Positions 26,361-52,818 of a stretch of 64,000 nt of DNA are shown piece after piece. Source of the stretch: Rikenellaceae bacterium (GTDB taxonomy: Bacteria > Bacteroidota > Bacteroidia > Bacteroidales > Rikenellaceae). The notes beneath the pieces were generated by a model. That model had not been told where the DNA came from, did not search any database, and saw nothing but the letters and a program-made list of their open reading frames with translations. Both the position numbers and the translations under genes were made by a program. The first letter of the stretch is position 1; each line of letters starts with the position of its first letter. The DNA lies in contig JAGBHC010000051.1 in assembly GCA_017935625.1 (NCBI GenBank), positions 1 through 64,000 of the forward strand. Direction: 5' to 3'.

Positions 26361-26945
26361 TCAGCATAGCACCAGGTCGTTCTCCTTTATCTTCTTGCGG
26401 AGGTTTATCAAAGCGTAACGCATACGCCCGAGCGCGGTGTTGATACTCACGTTGGTAAGGTCTGCTATCTCCTTGAAACTGAGTCCGGAGTAGTAACGCA
26501 TCATCACAACTTCGCGTTGTTCGTCCGGCAGGGTCTCCACCAGGCGCCGCACGTCGTCCTCAATCTGGCCCGCCACGAGGTTGTCCTCGACGGTGCGCTC
26601 GGAGAACTTCATGGTTCCCAGTATGTCGTAACCTGCGTCCGATTCGGTTATCTTGTTCTGCTGCTTGGTCTGGCGGAAGTAATCGATAACCTGATTATGC
26701 GCGATTCTCAATACCCACGATAAGAACTTGCCATTATCGGTGTAACGTTTCTCGTCTATGAAACGAATCACTTTGATGAAGGTCTCCTGGAAGATGTCGT
26801 CGGCAACATCGGCATCCTTGACCAACATGCGAATGTAGTCGAGCACGCGCTTGCGATGTTTGTCGATAAGTTGGGAAATAGCACTCTGGTCACCTGAAAG
26901 ATAGGTATTAAGCAATACTTGGTCGCTTAAAACTACTCGATTCAT
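26361..26945 (-). CDS. ECF-type RNA polymerase sigma factor C
   Basis: 194 residues. Region 2 contains IDKHRKRVLDYIRMLVKD, DDIFQETFIKVIRFIDE and FLSWVLRIAHNQVIDYFR. Region 4 contains LPDEQREVVMMRYYSGLSFKEIADL and SINTALGRMRYALINLRK. This is a well-conserved Bacteroidales ECF sigma factor. Its ATG is preceded by AAAGGAGAG, an unusually good ribosome-binding site for this phylum. No anti-sigma gene is adjacent. A copy of the module B ECF promoter motif lies 490 bp upstream and points towards it, suggesting cross-control. Confidence 0.93.
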   Translation of the reverse strand: MNRVVLSDQVLLNTYLSGDQSAISQLIDKHRKRVLDYIRMLVKDADVADDIFQETFIKVIRFIDEKRYTDNGKFLSWVLRIAHNQVIDYFRQTKQQNKITESDAGYDILGTMKFSERTVEDNLVAGQIEDDVRRLVETLPDEQREVVMMRYYSGLSFKEIADLTNVSINTALGRMRYALINLRKKIKENDLVLC

Positions 26946-27437
26946 ACTCTCTCCTTTACAATTGGTTTAGAGTAGATTTTTACGATAGGCAATCCGTTTT
27001 TGAAAGGTTAATGTTCAACTTAATCCGAGCGCAAGATAATCAAAAAAATCGGAACTCCCAAATTTCGTCGGGGCCGGCTTTCCGCTTATCGCCGCGCTCG
27101 ATGGTCAAAAGAGCAAAATCCGTGCCGCAATCGGTCCCGCCGCTCCTCTTCCGGGACCGCTCCGCCCTTTTCCGCATGCGGGCCGCCGCGGGGCTGCTGC
27201 CGGACCGTCCAGCAGAGGAGGGCCCCAGACAGGTTTTCCCCAACCGGACACCCGGCAGAGCCACCCGAACGAGGATTCCGAGCCGGAGGGCACCCCAACG
27301 AGAGCTCCGGAACCGGACCGTCCAATAGAGGACCTCGGCCGGATTTCCCCGGCTGGCCCCAGACTGGGCCGCCCGGGCAGGCAGGTTTTCCCGGGACAGG
27401 CGAACCCTCCCCGGACAAGCGGGTCTTCCGATAATAT
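26946..27437. repeat. gene-free region with degenerate repeats upstream of sigma factor C
   Basis: Two imperfect copies of a CCGGACCGTCCA..AGAGGA block (27200-27242 and 27313-27352; offset 113 bp), with related CAGGTTTTCCC segments at about 27230 and 27382, lie between the ECF promoter at 27438 and sigma factor C. No convincing frame exists. If the upstream ECF promoter is used, this would be a long leader or a separate untranslated RNA. Confidence 0.5.
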
Positions 27438-27465
27438 AGATGTAAAACCGGCGAAAAACGTTGCA
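27438..27465 (-). promoter_or_regulatory. predicted ECF promoter, copy 3
   Basis: On the minus strand TGCAACGTT (27457-27465), 13 bp, then ACATCT (27438-27443, continuing ATATTA). Sequence and spacing are identical to the copies before sigma factor B and the NigD-like gene. It would start a leftward transcript near 27431 running into sigma factor C. Confidence 0.65.
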
Positions 27466-46024: not shown

Positions 46025-47341
46025 CTATATGCACATGTTCACCAACGCTTCGTAGAGCTCCTGCTTGCCGCTGCGCCGCGCGGGCTCGCCGTGGGCGCGG
46101 GCATAGTCGCACAAATCCTCCAGCGAGAGCCGCCCCGCCTCGAACTCGGCGCCCGCGCCGCTGTCGAACGAAGCGTAGCGTTCGGCCAGCATCCGCACGT
46201 AGGGAGTCTTTTCGAGCAGTTCGGCCGCACACTCCAGGGCCCGCGCGAAGGCATCCATGCCGGCGATGTGGGCGATGAATATATCCTCCGGGTCGGTGGA
46301 GTTGCGGCGGGTCTTGGCGTCGAAGTTGGTGCCTCCGGTTCCCAGTCCGCCGCCGCGCAGGATGACCGCCATCGCCTGCGTCAGCTCGTAGACGTCGATG
46401 GGGAACTGGTCGGTGTCCCATCCGTTCTGATAGTCGCCGCGGTTGGCGTCGATGCTGCCGAGCATCCCCTCATCGACGGCGCACTGCAGCTCGTGCTCGA
46501 AGGTGTGGCCGGCCAGCGTGGCGTGGTTCACCTCGATATTGACCTTGAAGTCCTTGTCGAGCCCGTGGGCGCGCAGGAAGCCGATGACCGTCTCCGTATC
46601 GGCGTCGTACTGGTGCTTGGTGGGCTCCATGGGTTTGGGTTCGATGAGGAACGTTCCCCCGAATCCGCGGCTGCGGGCGTAGTCGCGAGCCTTGGCGAGC
46701 ATCGTCGCCAGGTGCTCCTTCTCGCGCTTCATGTCGGTGTTGAGCAGCGACATGTAGCCCTCGCGGCCGCCCCAGAAGACGTAGTTCTCGCCGCCCAGGG
46801 CGATGGTGGCGTCGATGGCGTTCTTAATCTGCACCGCCGCCCGGGCCACCACGTCGAAATCGGGATTGGTGGCCGCGCCGTTCATGTAGCGGGCATGGCC
46901 GAAGACATTGGCCGTGCCCCACAGCAGGCGGATGCCCGTCTGCTCCTGCTTGCGGCGCAGGTATTCGACGATGGTCTTCATGTCGGCCTCGTACTCGGCG
47001 ATGTCGTCCGAGGGCTCCACCAGGTCCACGTCGTGGAAACAGTAGAACCCGATGCCGCATTTGGTCATGAACTCGAAACCGGCATCGGCCCGGGCGAAGG
47101 CCCGCTCCATGCGGGTAGCCCCCTCGTTCCATGCGAAGCGCTTGGTGCCGCCGCCGAACTGGTCGCCGCCCTCGGCGCACAGGGTGTGCCACCAGGCCAT
47201 GGAAAACCGGAGCCAATCCTTCATCTTGCGTCCGCAGACGCTCTTTTCGGCATCGTAATAGCGGAATGCCAACGGATTCCGACTCTCCCTGCCCTCGAAG
47301 CGGATGGTTCCGACCGAGGGAAAATACTCTTTCTGTGCCAT
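46025..47341 (-). CDS. xylA: xylose isomerase
   Basis: 438 residues, class II length. It converts D-xylose to D-xylulose. [14 protein letters not shown] (catalytic His and Asp), [30 protein letters not shown] and [20 protein letters not shown] provide the metal ligands. It is the third gene of rpiB-xylB-xylA, 16 bp after xylB. Confidence 0.97.
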
Positions 47342-47357
47342 AATTTTCAGCTATCTG

Positions 47358-48845
47358 TTATTTCTGTGTCTTCAATCTCGATTCGAGTTCCCCGCGCCAG
47401 CGCCGGTAGCACGCCTCCAGCAGGGCGGCCGACCCGGGGTCGGGGTCCACCCGTTCGACGCACTCCAGCGAAGCGAACGCCTCCCGCCGGTCGGCATAGA
47501 GGCCGGCCCCCAGCGCAGCTCCCCGGGCAGCCCCCAGCGAGCCGTCCGTATCGTAGAGTTCGATGCTCGCGCCGCACAACGAGGCCAGCGTCCGCCGGAA
47601 AAGCGGACTGAGGAAAAGATTGGCCCGGCCGGCCCGAATCACCGACAGGTCGAGCCCCACGCCCCGCATGACCTCCATACCATAGCGGAACGCGCACGCC
47701 ACCCCCTCCTGCGCAGCACGCAGCAGGTGGCGCCGGTCGTGGCGGTTGAGGTCCACGCCGGTCAGCGTCACCCCCGTGTAGCGATTGCCCAGCATGCGCT
47801 CGGCTCCGTTGCCGAACGGCAGCAGCGTCACGCCGTCGCTGCCGGCCGGAACCTGCTCGCACAGGGCGTTTATCTCTGCGTAACCGATTTCAGGAGCCCA
47901 CATCCGGCGGGCCCAGGCATTGAGGATGCCCACTCCGTTGATGCAGAGCAACACGCCGTAGCGCGGAGCCGCGGCCGTGTGGTTCACATGCAGGAACGTG
48001 TTCACCCGCATCGCGGGGTCGGCCGCCGCCGAGGAGGTCACTCCGTAGACGACCCCCGACGTTCCGGCCGTAGCCGCCACCTCGCCGCACTCCGTCACAT
48101 GGAGCGAAAAGGCGTTATTGGGCTGGTCACCCGCCCGGTAGCTCACCGGCGTGCCGCGCCGGATGCCCAGCTGCGCCTCGGCGGCGGCCGAAACGCGGGC
48201 CTGCACCCCTATCGAGGGACGCAGGTCGGGAATCATGCCGTGCGGAATACCCAGCGCGTCGGCCACGGGCCAGGCCGTCGTCCCCTCCCTGAAATCCCAG
48301 AGTATCTGTTCGGAAAGGCCGCCCGGAGTGGTCGAGATGTCTCCCGTCAGCCGATAGACCACATAGTCTCCCGGCAGCAGCAGATGCCGCGTCCGGGCGA
48401 ATGTCTCCGGCTCGTGCTCCCGCACCCAGGCCATCTTGGCGGCGGTGAAGTTGCCCGGCTCGTTGAGCGTATGCTCCAGGCAATAGCTTTCGCCCAGCTC
48501 CCGCGCGGCCCGCTCGCCGTAGGGCACCGCCCGGCTGTCGCACCAGATAATGGCCGGACGCAACGCTTCGCCCCGCCCGTCGAGGCAGACCAGTCCGTGC
48601 ATCTGATAGGTGACCCCCACGGCCGCCACTTCGCCCATGTCGAAGCGGCGGGAGAGCTCCCTTATCCCGGCGCATACGTACTCCCACCACATCTGCGGCG
48701 CCTGCTCGGCCCACCCCTCGCGGGGAGCCGCAATGGGCATCTCGCTCGCGGGGAAGACCGCACTGCCGACTTTTCTGCCCGAGGGGACGTCCATCAGCGA
48801 CACCTTCACCGACGAACTCCCCACATCGATTCCCAATGTTTTCAT
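47358..48845 (-). CDS. xylB: xylulokinase
   Basis: 495 residues. An FGGY kinase phosphorylating D-xylulose. The start MKTLGIDVGSSSVKVSLMD forms the phosphate loop; GVTYQMHGLVCLD, AIIWCDSRAVPYGE, LLLPGDYVVYRLTGD and ATAGTSGVVYGV match the family. It lies between rpiB and xylA; all three feed pentoses into the pentose phosphate pathway. Confidence 0.95.
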   Translation of the reverse strand: MKTLGIDVGSSSVKVSLMDVPSGRKVGSAVFPASEMPIAAPREGWAEQAPQMWWEYVCAGIRELSRRFDMGEVAAVGVTYQMHGLVCLDGRGEALRPAIIWCDSRAVPYGERAARELGESYCLEHTLNEPGNFTAAKMAWVREHEPETFARTRHLLLPGDYVVYRLTGDISTTPGGLSEQILWDFREGTTAWPVADALGIPHGMIPDLRPSIGVQARVSAAAEAQLGIRRGTPVSYRAGDQPNNAFSLHVTECGEVAATAGTSGVVYGVTSSAAADPAMRVNTFLHVNHTAAAPRYGVLLCINGVGILNAWARRMWAPEIGYAEINALCEQVPAGSDGVTLLPFGNGAERMLGNRYTGVTLTGVDLNRHDRRHLLRAAQEGVACAFRYGMEVMRGVGLDLSVIRAGRANLFLSPLFRRTLASLCGASIELYDTDGSLGAARGAALGAGLYADRREAFASLECVERVDPDPGSAALLEACYRRWRGELESRLKTQK

Positions 48846-48892
48846 ACGGTTCTGATTTCAGTTCCGGCCCGCAGGCCGGACAGACGGAACGG

Positions 48893-49342
48893 CTACTCGC
48901 ACTTCCCCACGGGAATCTTGTCGATACGGCGCTGGTGGCGTCCGCCCTCGAACGCGGTGTCGAGAAACGCATCGATGATTTGCACGGCGGTTTCCGGCTC
49001 GATGAAACGGGCCGGCATGACGCAGACGTTGGCATCGTTGTGCGAGCGGGCCAGGCCCGAAATCTCGGGCGTCCAGCAGAGCGCCGAACGGATTCCCTGG
49101 TGCTTGTTGAGCGTCATGTTGATGCCGTTGCCGCTGCCGCACATGGCGATGCCGCGGGGCACCTCGCCCCGCTCGACGGCCTCGGCCAGCGGATGGGCGA
49201 AATCGGCGTAGTCGCAGCTCTCCTCGCTGTAACATCCGAAATCCAATACGTCGAAACCCCGGCTGTCGAGATAGCCTACGGTAAACTCCTTGAGCTGATA
49301 GCCCGCATGGTCGCAGGCGACTCCTATTTTCGGTTTGGTCAT
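48893..49342 (-). CDS. rpiB: ribose-5-phosphate isomerase B
   Basis: 149 residues from MTKPKIGVACDHAGYQLKEF. It interconverts ribose-5-phosphate and ribulose-5-phosphate. The active-site motif is AMCGSGNGINMTLNK (Cys68); ARSHNDANVCVMPARF is the second signature. The longer frame begins in the promoter region. First gene of the pentose operon. Confidence 0.95.
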   Translation of the reverse strand: MTKPKIGVACDHAGYQLKEFTVGYLDSRGFDVLDFGCYSEESCDYADFAHPLAEAVERGEVPRGIAMCGSGNGINMTLNKHQGIRSALCWTPEISGLARSHNDANVCVMPARFIEPETAVQIIDAFLDTAFEGGRHQRRIDKIPVGKCE

Positions 49343-49373
49343 GGTCGGTCGATTTTTTTTGGTTAGTCTATGG

Positions 49374-49404
49374 CAAAGGTAAAAATATTTTCGCATCATG
49401 CAAC
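49374..49404 (-). promoter_or_regulatory. promoter of rpiB-xylB-xylA
   Basis: On the minus strand TACCTTTG (49374-49381) has GTTG (49401-49404) 19 bp upstream. The -33 element lies inside the TGCAACGTT box of the divergent ECF promoter, so the two promoters probably exclude each other. Confidence 0.55.
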
Positions 49405-49426
49405 GTTATTGCCTGCGAATACATCT
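49399..49426 (+). promoter_or_regulatory. predicted ECF promoter, copy 1 (before sigma factor B)
   Basis: TGCAACGTT (49399-49407), 13 bp, ACATCT (49421-49426) followed by ACCTATA. The GTG start of sigma B lies 24 bp after the ACATCT. The position before an ECF gene and two further exact copies imply autoregulation by sigma factor B. Confidence 0.72.
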
Positions 49427-49449: not shown

Positions 49450-49983
49450 GTGAAGAGCAGGCTTGATTACATAATCGACGGTTGCCGCAGAGGAGATAAC
49501 GACGCACGCCGCGAATTGTATGAAGAATATGCGGCTCTCATGTACGGCGTTATCTGCCGCTACGTACACGACCGGGCCGCCGCCCAGGACCTGCTGCACG
49601 ACGGCTTCATCACCCTCTACACCAAAATTGGGGAGTTTCGCGGCGAAGGGTCGTTCGAGGGATGGTGCCGGAGAATCTTCGTGAACACCGCACTGGGATA
49701 TCTCCGGCGCAACAATCCGCTCGAAGGGGCCGACACCGAGGAGCGGCTGGCGAAAACCGGTTCGGCCGAGGCTTCGGTGATAGAGAAGATGGGGGCCGAC
49801 GACATTCTGAAGGCCATCGACCGGCTGCCGCCGGGATACCGGACCATCCTCAACCTCTATGCCGTGGACGGATACTCCCACCGGGAGATAGGCCAGATGC
49901 TCGGGGTGAGCGAAAACACCTCGCGCTCGCAGTACTCGCGCGCACGGGGGCGCCTGGCGGAGATACTCACCCGCAACCGCTGA
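49450..49983 (+). CDS. ECF-type RNA polymerase sigma factor B
   Basis: 177 residues starting at a GTG. Region 2 has GDNDARRELYEEYAALMYGV, AQDLLHDGFITLYTKIGEF and WCRRIFVNTALGYLRR. Region 4 has LPPGYRTILNLYAVDGYSHREI and SENTSRSQYSRARGRL. The upstream ECF motif argues that it controls its own gene. It is followed 70 bp later by a membrane/barrel fusion that is probably its anti-sigma factor. Confidence 0.93.
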   Translation: MKSRLDYIIDGCRRGDNDARRELYEEYAALMYGVICRYVHDRAAAQDLLHDGFITLYTKIGEFRGEGSFEGWCRRIFVNTALGYLRRNNPLEGADTEERLAKTGSAEASVIEKMGADDILKAIDRLPPGYRTILNLYAVDGYSHREIGQMLGVSENTSRSQYSRARGRLAEILTRNR

Positions 49984-50053: not shown

Positions 50054-51346
50054 ATGACGGAAAAAGACCACATAGAAGAGCTGCTTCACCGAAAACTCCA
50101 CGACCACGGCCAGGAGCCGCCGCAGGAGGTATGGACGCACATCGCCAGGAGTCTCGAGGCCGGTGCGGTTCCTCCCGCGCCCGCGCCGCGGCGAAAACTG
50201 TGGAGAATCGCAGCGGCAGTGACTTCGGCGGCGGCCATGCTCACGGCCGCCCTGCTGCTCGTCCCCTCCGTCGAGCCGCCCGCAGAGCATCTGGCCTCCG
50301 TCGCGCCCCGGCAGCAGGACGACCGGCAGGCCGTGGAGCGGCTCATCGGCAGCGCCATCACCGTGGACGACCTCTCCCGCAAGCTCCAGGGACGGGAGAC
50401 CCCCTCCGCCCATCGCTCCGCCCCGCAGGTTCCCTACACCGAAACCGCCCGGCTCATCGCAGCCGACGCCCCCGCGGCGGAGGAGTCCGCCGACCCCACT
50501 CCGGCCGAGATAATCCGTGCGGCCACCCGCACCGACGAACGGCCCCCGCACCGCGGCGAATCACAGCCGGTGCCGGAGGCGGTCCCCGGCCGCGACCGCG
50601 CGGGCTACTCCCCCTCGCCGCAGTGGGAGACCCTCGCCGAACTGAAACGCAGACGCACCCGCAGGCCCAAGCCGGGTCTTTCGCTCTATGCCCTCAACAG
50701 CAGCGGCATCCGAACGGGCGGCAACGGCACTCCCCGGCCGATAGTCATGGCGACCGCACCGCAGGCCATTTCGGTGGTGAACGACCACAGCATCCTGATG
50801 AAATCCGGCACACGGACTCCGCGCCAGGCAATCAAAATGCACCACAAGTACCCGGTGACGGTGGGTATCGGCATCGACTATCCGCTCTCCGCACGATTCA
50901 GCCTCGAGAGCGGCGTGACATACAGCTATCTGCAATCCACCTCCGCCACCTTCACCCAGCAGGTGTCGGACTACCGGCTGCGGCAGGAGCTCCACTACAT
51001 CGGCATCCCGCTCAAGCTGAACTACCGTCTGGTCGATACCCCCCGCTTCGGATTCTACGCCGGTGCGGGCGGCATGCTCGAGAAGGGAGTCCGGGGCACG
51101 CGCACCACGACCATCCTGACCCGGGGAACGACCGCCAAAGAGCGCACCTCGTTCAAGGTCGAAGGCGTGCAGCCCTCGGTGGGCGCTTCGCTGGGCGTGG
51201 AATACAAACCGGCCGAGCTCGTGAGCATCTATCTCGAACCGGGCATCTCCTACTACTTCGACAACTCGCAACCCGACAACTACCGGACGGAACATCCGCT
51301 CAACTTCTCGCTCAAAGCGGGCGTGCGGTTCAACCTCTCGAAATAA
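50054..51346 (+). CDS. anti-sigma-like protein fused to an outer-membrane beta-barrel
   Basis: 430 residues in three parts. Residues 1-48 are cytoplasmic-like and charged (HIEELLHRKLHDHGQEPPQ, then VWTHIARSL), a pattern seen in Bacteroidetes proteins next to ECF sigma genes. Residues 49-70 form one membrane helix (WRIAAAVTSAAAMLTAALLL). Residues 75-215 are a Pro/Arg/Glu-rich linker long enough to cross the periplasm. Residues 235-430 form a PorT-like barrel (YPVTVGIGIDYPLSARFSLE, LHYIGIPLKLNYRL, GAGGMLEKG, LNFSLKAGVRFNLSK). There is no signal peptide. I infer a trans-envelope sensor that holds sigma B until an outer-membrane signal releases it. Confidence 0.8.
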   Translation: MTEKDHIEELLHRKLHDHGQEPPQEVWTHIARSLEAGAVPPAPAPRRKLWRIAAAVTSAAAMLTAALLLVPSVEPPAEHLASVAPRQQDDRQAVERLIGSAITVDDLSRKLQGRETPSAHRSAPQVPYTETARLIAADAPAAEESADPTPAEIIRAATRTDERPPHRGESQPVPEAVPGRDRAGYSPSPQWETLAELKRRRTRRPKPGLSLYALNSSGIRTGGNGTPRPIVMATAPQAISVVNDHSILMKSGTRTPRQAIKMHHKYPVTVGIGIDYPLSARFSLESGVTYSYLQSTSATFTQQVSDYRLRQELHYIGIPLKLNYRLVDTPRFGFYAGAGGMLEKGVRGTRTTTILTRGTTAKERTSFKVEGVQPSVGASLGVEYKPAELVSIYLEPGISYYFDNSQPDNYRTEHPLNFSLKAGVRFNLSK

Positions 51347-51369: not shown

Positions 51370-51397
51370 TGCAACGTTCGCCCGCTGGCGGACATCT
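51370..51397 (+). promoter_or_regulatory. predicted ECF promoter, copy 2 (before NigD-like gene)
   Basis: TGCAACGTT (51370-51378), 13 bp, ACATCT (51392-51397). A transcript from about 51405 would carry the NigD-like gene alone, in addition to read-through from the module B operon. Confidence 0.7.
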
Positions 51398-51478: not shown

Positions 51479-52288
51479 ATGAAAAACTTCAAATTCCCGA
51501 TTCTCCTATCCGCGATGCTCGCCCTCATCGCATTCGCCTCCTGCTCCGACACCCACAACAGCGAGTGGGGCGACTACCTCATCAGCTACGGTACGGTCGT
51601 CAAGACGGAGCGGACCGCCGACAATTTCGACATCAAGCGCGACGACGGCGTACTGCTGCACATATCCTCCAACCTCATCCCCAACGTGCAGCTCGACGAC
51701 CAGCAGCGCGTGCTGGTCAATTACACGATTATTCCGGACCAGGCCCCGGGGGGGGGTAGCTTCGATTCTTCGACCTCGCCCATAAAGAGTTACAACGTGC
51801 AGCTCAACGGCATCGAGAAGATTCTCACCAAGCGGGCCCTCACCGAAAGTTTCATCCTGGCCGACGAGCAGCATCGCAACGACAGCATCGGCAACGACGC
51901 GATAATCATCACCGACGCATGGTTCACCGGCAAATACATCAACATCCATTTCGCCGTATGGGAATGGGGCGAGGCTTTCGAGAACTCCCACTTCCTGAAC
52001 ATGGTCTACGACGACACCCTGCCCGCCGGCGAAGCGGCCCGGCTCACGCTCCGTCACAAGAGCACCGGCCCCGGAGGCATCTCGGGCGGACAGATACTGC
52101 GCTACGGCGACGTATCGTTCGACATCTCCGCCATCCTTCCCGAGGGCGGCACCGAACGCGAAGTGGAGCTCCGCTGGCAGAATTACAGCGGCACGGTGAG
52201 CACCGACACCGGCACCTTCCGCCTCAACGCCACGTCGGATTCGGCCCCCAAGGGCTCTTTCAACGCCACATCTTTAGTGGAAAAATAA
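51479..52288 (+). CDS. NigD-like lipoprotein with G9 tract
   Basis: 269 residues with a lipoprotein signal (SAMLALIAFASCSD; lipid on C22). The body (ISYGTVVKTERTADNFDIKR, QLDDQQRVLVNYTII, TDAWFTGKYINIHFAVWE, SGGQILRYGDVSFDIS) fits the NigD-like two-domain family of Bacteroidales, function unknown, usually surface or periplasmic lipoproteins. Codons 90-93 contain nine consecutive G (51748-51756). Adding one G gives a stop after residue 93; removing one gives a stop about ten codons later. The gene can therefore be switched by slippage. It has its own ECF promoter. Confidence 0.85.
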   Translation: MKNFKFPILLSAMLALIAFASCSDTHNSEWGDYLISYGTVVKTERTADNFDIKRDDGVLLHISSNLIPNVQLDDQQRVLVNYTIIPDQAPGGGSFDSSTSPIKSYNVQLNGIEKILTKRALTESFILADEQHRNDSIGNDAIIITDAWFTGKYINIHFAVWEWGEAFENSHFLNMVYDDTLPAGEAARLTLRHKSTGPGGISGGQILRYGDVSFDISAILPEGGTEREVELRWQNYSGTVSTDTGTFRLNATSDSAPKGSFNATSLVEK

Positions 52289-52380: not shown

Positions 52381-52818
52381 AAAGGCGCCCGACCGGTTTA
52401 CGACATGAGCGGGAACGTATGGGAATGGTGTCAGGACCTATACGCCCCCTACGGCACGTCCGGCACGACGAATCCGCAAGGCGGAGTCCAGGAGCTTCGC
52501 CGGGTGCGCAGAGGCGGCAGCAGCGAGAAAAGATACGTTCCTCCTGCGGTGGCACTCCGGCACGACGAATCCGCAAGGCGGAGTCCAGGAGCTCCGCCGG
52601 GTGCGCAGAGGCGGCAGCAGCGAGAAAAGATACGTTCCTCCTGCGGTGGCACGTCCGGCATGACGAATCCGCAAGGCGGAGTCCAGGAGCTTCGCCGGGT
52701 GCGCAGAGGCGGCAGCTGGAGAGACGATGCCCCCTGCTGTCTCTCCGCATTCCGGAGCCGCAACCGTCCCTCGGCCAAAGGAGAGTGGCACGGAGTGCGT
52801 CTGGCCGCGGATTGGGAC
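52381..52818 (+). pseudogene. fragment of a formylglycine-generating-enzyme (SUMF1/FGE-sulfatase) domain protein with internal tandem repeats
   Basis: Only the C-terminal end of the FGE fold remains: VYDMSGNVWEWCQDLYAPYG, then RRVRRGGSW, and later AFRSRNRPSAKGEWHGVRLA. The N-terminal 150-200 residues, promoter and start are missing because the NigD terminator lies just upstream, and no stop follows GVRLA. The core is interrupted by tandem repeats (52453-52550, 98 bp; 52551-52647, 97 bp; 52648-52716 partial). Units of 98 and 97 bp sum to 195, so unit 3 returns to the reading frame of unit 1. FGE-like proteins in this phylum are often lipoproteins or diversity-generating retroelement targets; no reverse transcriptase is visible here. 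Confidence 0.7.
52453..52716 (+). repeat. 97/98-bp tandem repeat, 2.7 copies
   Basis: Each full unit starts GGCAC(G)TCCGGCA and ends CCTCCTGCGGT. Copies 1 and 2 differ by one deleted base near the start and one or two substitutions. Copy 3 keeps the first 69 bp and then continues into unique FGE-like sequence. The last 29 bp of the full units (from AGCGAGAAAAG) are not FGE-like. Confidence 0.9.

Follow-up and report, generated by a model that had tools for sequence, protein, structure and literature searches.

The autoregulated ECF sigma factor sigma-E of Escherichia coli, with its partner RseA, answers envelope stress when porin peptides set off a cascade of proteases, and the AAC core of its -35 element is read by the sigma4.2 helix. 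In Bacteroides fragilis and Phocaeicola vulgatus, EcfO was found by experiment to drive nigD genes (PMC13114119, PMC9308784), and an EcfO recognition motif reported in 2013 is cited in PMC7366714. In Bacteroides thetaiotaomicron, experiments placed nigD genes under the control of Das1 and loss of Dma1 raised nigD1; das2 was among the genes most induced on loss of dma2, with its neighbours also induced (PMC13088901). The locus described here, composed of an ECF sigma factor (sigma B), a 430-aa protein and a NigD lipoprotein, is an envelope-stress system of this known Das/Dma (EcfO/Reo) kind. Its probable promoter element was followed across the genome, the family Rikenellaceae and the order.

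The sigma B operon

In the 64-kb stretch of DNA analysed (hereafter the window), the sigma B gene adjoined that of a putative anti-sigma factor, which is the gene order of the Das/Dma system (Table 1). Among the models compared, only the general ECF model passed its cut-off for sigma B; membership of ECF21, the group of the Das/Dma system, is putative. AlphaFold predicted N-terminal helices for the 430-aa protein, a helix at residues 49-69 of sufficient length to span the inner membrane, a disordered stretch to residue ~184 and a confident eight-stranded C-terminal barrel. The pLDDT was mostly 80-97 in the barrel and lower in the N-terminal part. The barrel matched OmpA, and model OMP_b-brl_2 was matched by all 20 homologues examined. 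By analogy with the described systems, sigma B appears to be a sensor of outer-membrane condition. The NigD gene was the sole NigD_C gene of the genome.

Two neighbouring regions were also observed. Divergently from the operon, the minus strand (46025-49399) carried a xylose-isomerase-like gene, an FGGY sugar kinase and a LacAB/RpiB-type isomerase. Directly after an FGE-sulfatase domain-end fragment, a 97-bp unit was repeated 2.7 times with 97% identity (52453-52716); the arrangement resembles a disrupted gene that contains an internal duplication.

Table 1. Genes and element copies considered in this study (window coordinates unless a locus is named)
Feature	Position	Strand	Description
Element copy 1	49399..49426	+	probable sigma B promoter; TGCAAC (-35), 16-nt gap, ACATCT (-10)
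ECF sigma factor B	49450..49983	+	177 aa from GTG start; Das/EcfO kind, carrying sigma regions 2 and 4
Putative anti-sigma factor	50054..51346	+	430 aa; AlphaFold model, OmpA match
Element copy 2	51370..51397	+	between anti-sigma gene and NigD gene; same place in relatives
NigD1/NigD2-family lipoprotein	51479..52288	+	269 aa; family match
Element copy 3	27438..27465	-	exact match; without assignable target
ECF sigma factor A	26361..26945	-	194 aa; next gene in direction of third site
~320-aa lipoprotein gene	L005:1599-2564		own genome, C4:49146 site
~320-aa lipoprotein gene	L156:1565-2527		another genus

Occurrence of the element

The element TGCAACGTT-N13-ACATCT occurred exactly three times in the window. 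The initial annotation had described three identically spaced copies with unrelated spacers, and its coordinates and strands were confirmed; the flanks of the copies differed as well. Copy 1 was located 23 nt 5' of the GTG proposed as start codon for sigma B. The element was absent from 100 dinucleotide shuffles of the window, and the genome (2.18 Mb, 54 contigs) held no fourth exact copy. Base composition predicted ~0.001 exact copies per genome and 3e-5 per window, counts that are not formal p-values since the motif was picked after the window had been read.

Tolerance of up to three mismatches over the whole genome brought matches to background level (45, versus 42 in a reversed control). 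A one-mismatch site (C4:10328) and a two-mismatch site (C4:49146) were both intergenic and 5' of envelope genes. When TGCAAC and RYRTCW were allowed to be separated by 12 to 20 nt, a gap of 16, the spacing of the initial annotation, was encountered in 9 of 21 genome matches (binomial p = 2e-4). Four gap-16 sites were discarded as targets: C4:138870, C10:32881 and C29:132634 were inside coding sequence, and C43:1843 was intergenic without a clear gene. This genome is the sole member of its genus.

Conservation upstream of sigma B homologues

Homologues of sigma B were present in 54 of 100 genomes of the family Rikenellaceae. At the level of the order, where each of the 60 genomes scanned represented a different family, 54 had one. 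Those from 38 named contigs were closest to sigma B when they came from Rikenellaceae. Related genomes were scanned and sites mapped to start codons, as the initial annotation had proposed, and the spacing was invariant: in 59 of 68 non-redundant upstream regions TGCAAC, with no more than one change, was separated from NNRTCW by precisely 16 nt. A set of 71 loci put to the same test yielded 59 matches at gap 16, zero to five at each of the remaining gaps between 8 and 25, and an average of 0.26 in shuffles. The consensus at sigma promoters was [AG]TGCAAC-N16-[GA][CT]ATC[TA]. The site extended to Segetibacter (L087) and, in the form GGCAAC, to Saprospiraceae (L084, L085). The sigma genes of the orthologues were preceded by the same bipartite element at a fixed spacing, as is the mark of an autoregulated ECF promoter. 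The 9-mer plus 6-mer of the initial annotation held for the exact copies, but the GTT that follows TGCAAC was not conserved upstream of the 68 homologues.

A strict scan of the 100 family genomes with TGCAACGTT-N13-RYATCT uncovered 23 sites in 11 genomes, versus one match in the reversed control. Eleven of the 54 genomes with a sigma B homologue displayed a strict site versus none of the 46 without (Fisher p = 8e-4, uncorrected for kinship, by which this co-occurrence is confounded); the strict form was lacking in the other 43 genomes with a homologue. Most of these sites were located 5' of lipoprotein genes. One (L032) was inside a long coding frame and was rejected as a promoter, being probably due to chance. 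The claim that the motif is the autoregulated promoter of sigma B was supported both by the 59 of 68 homologues and by the restriction of the strict form to family genomes bearing sigma B. Many gut bacteria related to this one carried the same signal 5' of the sigma gene and of its lipoprotein gene. The observation is therefore real, but it concerns a stress system of known type.

NigD and other lipoproteins as candidate targets

In relatives (L069, L071, L072, L074, L075 and L076) in which the NigD-type gene comes after the anti-sigma gene, the TGCAACGTT form was found ~30-50 nt 5' of the NigD-type gene. At L067, L070 and L073 the NigD-type gene started at most ~45 nt 3' of the anti-sigma gene and no element of the TGCAACGTT form was listed before it; judging from this arrangement, it may be expressed there by read-through from the anti-sigma gene. 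Outside the family, a similar element accompanied only ~4 of 22 NigD genes. The earlier proposal of NigD as a target is favoured by the presence of the element 5' of NigD here and 5' of the NigD genes of relatives. NigD and other lipoproteins are likely targets of sigma B, and two more loci outside the window, elsewhere in the genome, probably belong to its regulon.

The element was also found 5' of members of a ~320-aa lipoprotein family, without Pfam or NCBIfam match, in two genera. The lipoprotein behind C4:49146 was 28% identical over 292 aa (E = 2e-28) to that of L156, whose gene has the same element; it had no clear match to NigD. At L004:1501-3028, the one-mismatch element of C4:10328 was followed by two genes, one for a small protein of secreted or barrel-like type and one for a lipoprotein. 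Neither protein had a convincing family match; their genes are possible regulon members in view of the element.

The third site and sigma A

The third site was ~490 nt from the sigma A gene (ATG at 26945), so that only two of the three sites had a close downstream gene. No plausible ORF was found between the site and sigma A, nor was any terminator-like site found on the minus strand over this interval, which was single copy in the genome. The region 27030-27437 (minus strand) was GC-rich, without plausible ORF, and displayed short internal repeats by eye; a structured RNA at 27030-27432 was rejected as folding was unremarkable (z -1.5). Homologues of sigma A were present in 58 of 60 family genomes, and none of the 29 upstream regions considered carried the element, for which reason sigma A was rejected as the user of the motif. 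Possible roles of the site at 27438 are transcription of sigma A by way of a long leader or of a non-coding RNA; it may also be a relic. Of the three sites proposed as a first regulon by the initial annotation, those at sigma B and NigD stood, and the minus-strand site could be assigned no target.

Recognition helix and -35 letters

Among 147 non-redundant sigma factors of the sigma B family, 100 were preceded by the element; the gap was 16 nt in 84 of these and 15 nt in the other 16. Sigmas with S or A at one recognition-helix position, instead of R or K, lacked it altogether (0 of 20, versus 100 of 127 otherwise). In a subfamily including L280-L289, L291-L296 and similar loci, SSSSQLFRAR or a close variant took the place of TS[RK]SQ in the recognition helix, and the TGCAAC element was absent throughout (0 of 20).

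Helix residues and -35 letters were compared over the 100 sigma/promoter pairs. Q together with R went with TG in 67 of 71, and N, D or H together with R went with CG in 13 of 13. The 16 sigmas in which K, H or Y replaced R never displayed TG, and T was accompanied by G at base 5 in five of five. We take the helix positions to be residues 171, 173, 175 and 176 in the numbering of E. coli sigma-E, in its -35-reading helix. On a tree built without the recognition helix, the clean cases amounted to only one to four changes, that is, few independent events; the association therefore supports, and does not prove, direct reading. Together these patterns are pointing to sigma B reading the element directly.

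We give even odds to a broader rule, according to which the sigma B family follows one promoter plan across Bacteroidales (-35 NRCARC, a gap of 15-16 nt, then NNRTCW) and a few sigma4.2 residues would set the -35: Q with R for TG, N, D or H with R for CG, K for GG, GA or AG, and T for G at base 5. If true, protein sequence would suffice to predict promoters and regulons for many envelope-stress sigmas that are as yet uncharacterised, and sigma B would also control the unnamed ~320-aa lipoprotein family and perhaps sigma A.

Proposed mechanism and alternatives

With high confidence we regard the element as a promoter read by sigma B, a sigma factor of the Das/EcfO kind, which the anti-sigma factor of the next gene would hold and release upon disturbance of the outer membrane, and which would then raise its own operon and lipoproteins, NigD first. 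The putative anti-sigma factor, as modelled, would start in the cytoplasm, cross the inner membrane and end in an outer-membrane barrel, and would keep sigma B inactive until that membrane is disturbed. Freed sigma B, with core RNA polymerase, would start transcription at TGCAAC-N16-RYATCT, with positive feedback on its operon. We infer the direct binding of the element by sigma B and the role of the lipoproteins in the response; release on outer-membrane stress would follow by analogy with the EcfO/Reo and Das/Dma papers.

Conserved bipartite elements can also be operator sites, and binding of this one by sigma B is putative, so that a separate activator or repressor might instead control the sigma operon and NigD. 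The halves of the element are neither palindromic nor repeated, the rigid gap of 16 (or 15) nt suits -35/-10 spacing, and the element is absent where the recognition helix differs, its -35 letters following helix residues; a separate factor is on these grounds very improbable. The co-variation of the -35 letters with the helix of the sigma B family also speaks against the notion that the promoter serves another ECF sigma, such as sigma A, with sigma B as one of its targets. Such a role is suggested by the third copy upstream of sigma A and by the several ECF candidates of the genome. Yet the strict element occurred only where a sigma B homologue was present, sigma A being in 58 of 60 genomes, and sigma A homologues lacked the element upstream; we consider control by another sigma just as improbable.

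Three exact copies in one 64-kb window, of a motif picked after reading it, might finally be ascribed to chance or to remnants of a mobile repeat. The spacers and flanks differ, the expectation is ~0.001 in the genome, and orthologous positions are conserved in many genera and families. Conservation across genera refutes this origin for the sigma B and NigD sites, and for the three copies together its probability is negligible.

Comparison with known systems

The system belongs to a known class. What may be new is the promoter rule across the order, a judgement made apart from the letters of the 2013 EcfO motif, which is cited in PMC7366714. Neither the order-wide conservation nor the correspondence between helix and -35 was found in the accessible literature, and text searches for the motif letters returned nothing relevant. 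A promoter conserved throughout an order and tied to specific sigma residues would make regulons predictable from genome sequence, including those of uncultured Rikenellaceae. Lipoproteins are indicated as a common output of these sigma systems.

Sigma B resembles sigma-E as a probably autoregulated ECF sigma that would answer envelope stress, and the -35 elements of both have an AAC core. Unlike the sigma-E/RseA system, the anti-sigma factor itself appears here to reach the outer membrane, and the -35 and -10 sequences differ. Das1/Dma1 and Das2/Dma2 of B. thetaiotaomicron have anti-sigma factors composed of an anti-sigma domain, a membrane helix, a disordered tether and a C-terminal barrel, and this four-part anatomy matches the model obtained here; that study also describes an effect on vesicles, and gives no promoter motif (PMC13088901). 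In EcfO/Reo, likewise, the gene behind that of the ECF sigma is large and encodes an anti-sigma factor with an outer-membrane barrel at its end (PMC13114119, PMC9308784). Activity of that system induces its own sigma and anti-sigma genes, to which the probable autoregulatory element would correspond here. The EcfO/Reo regulon includes nigD genes, and the element 5' of the NigD gene makes control by sigma B a candidate counterpart. In contrast to EcfO/Reo, one NigD gene is located here directly behind the sigma/anti-sigma pair and is preceded by a separate copy of the element.
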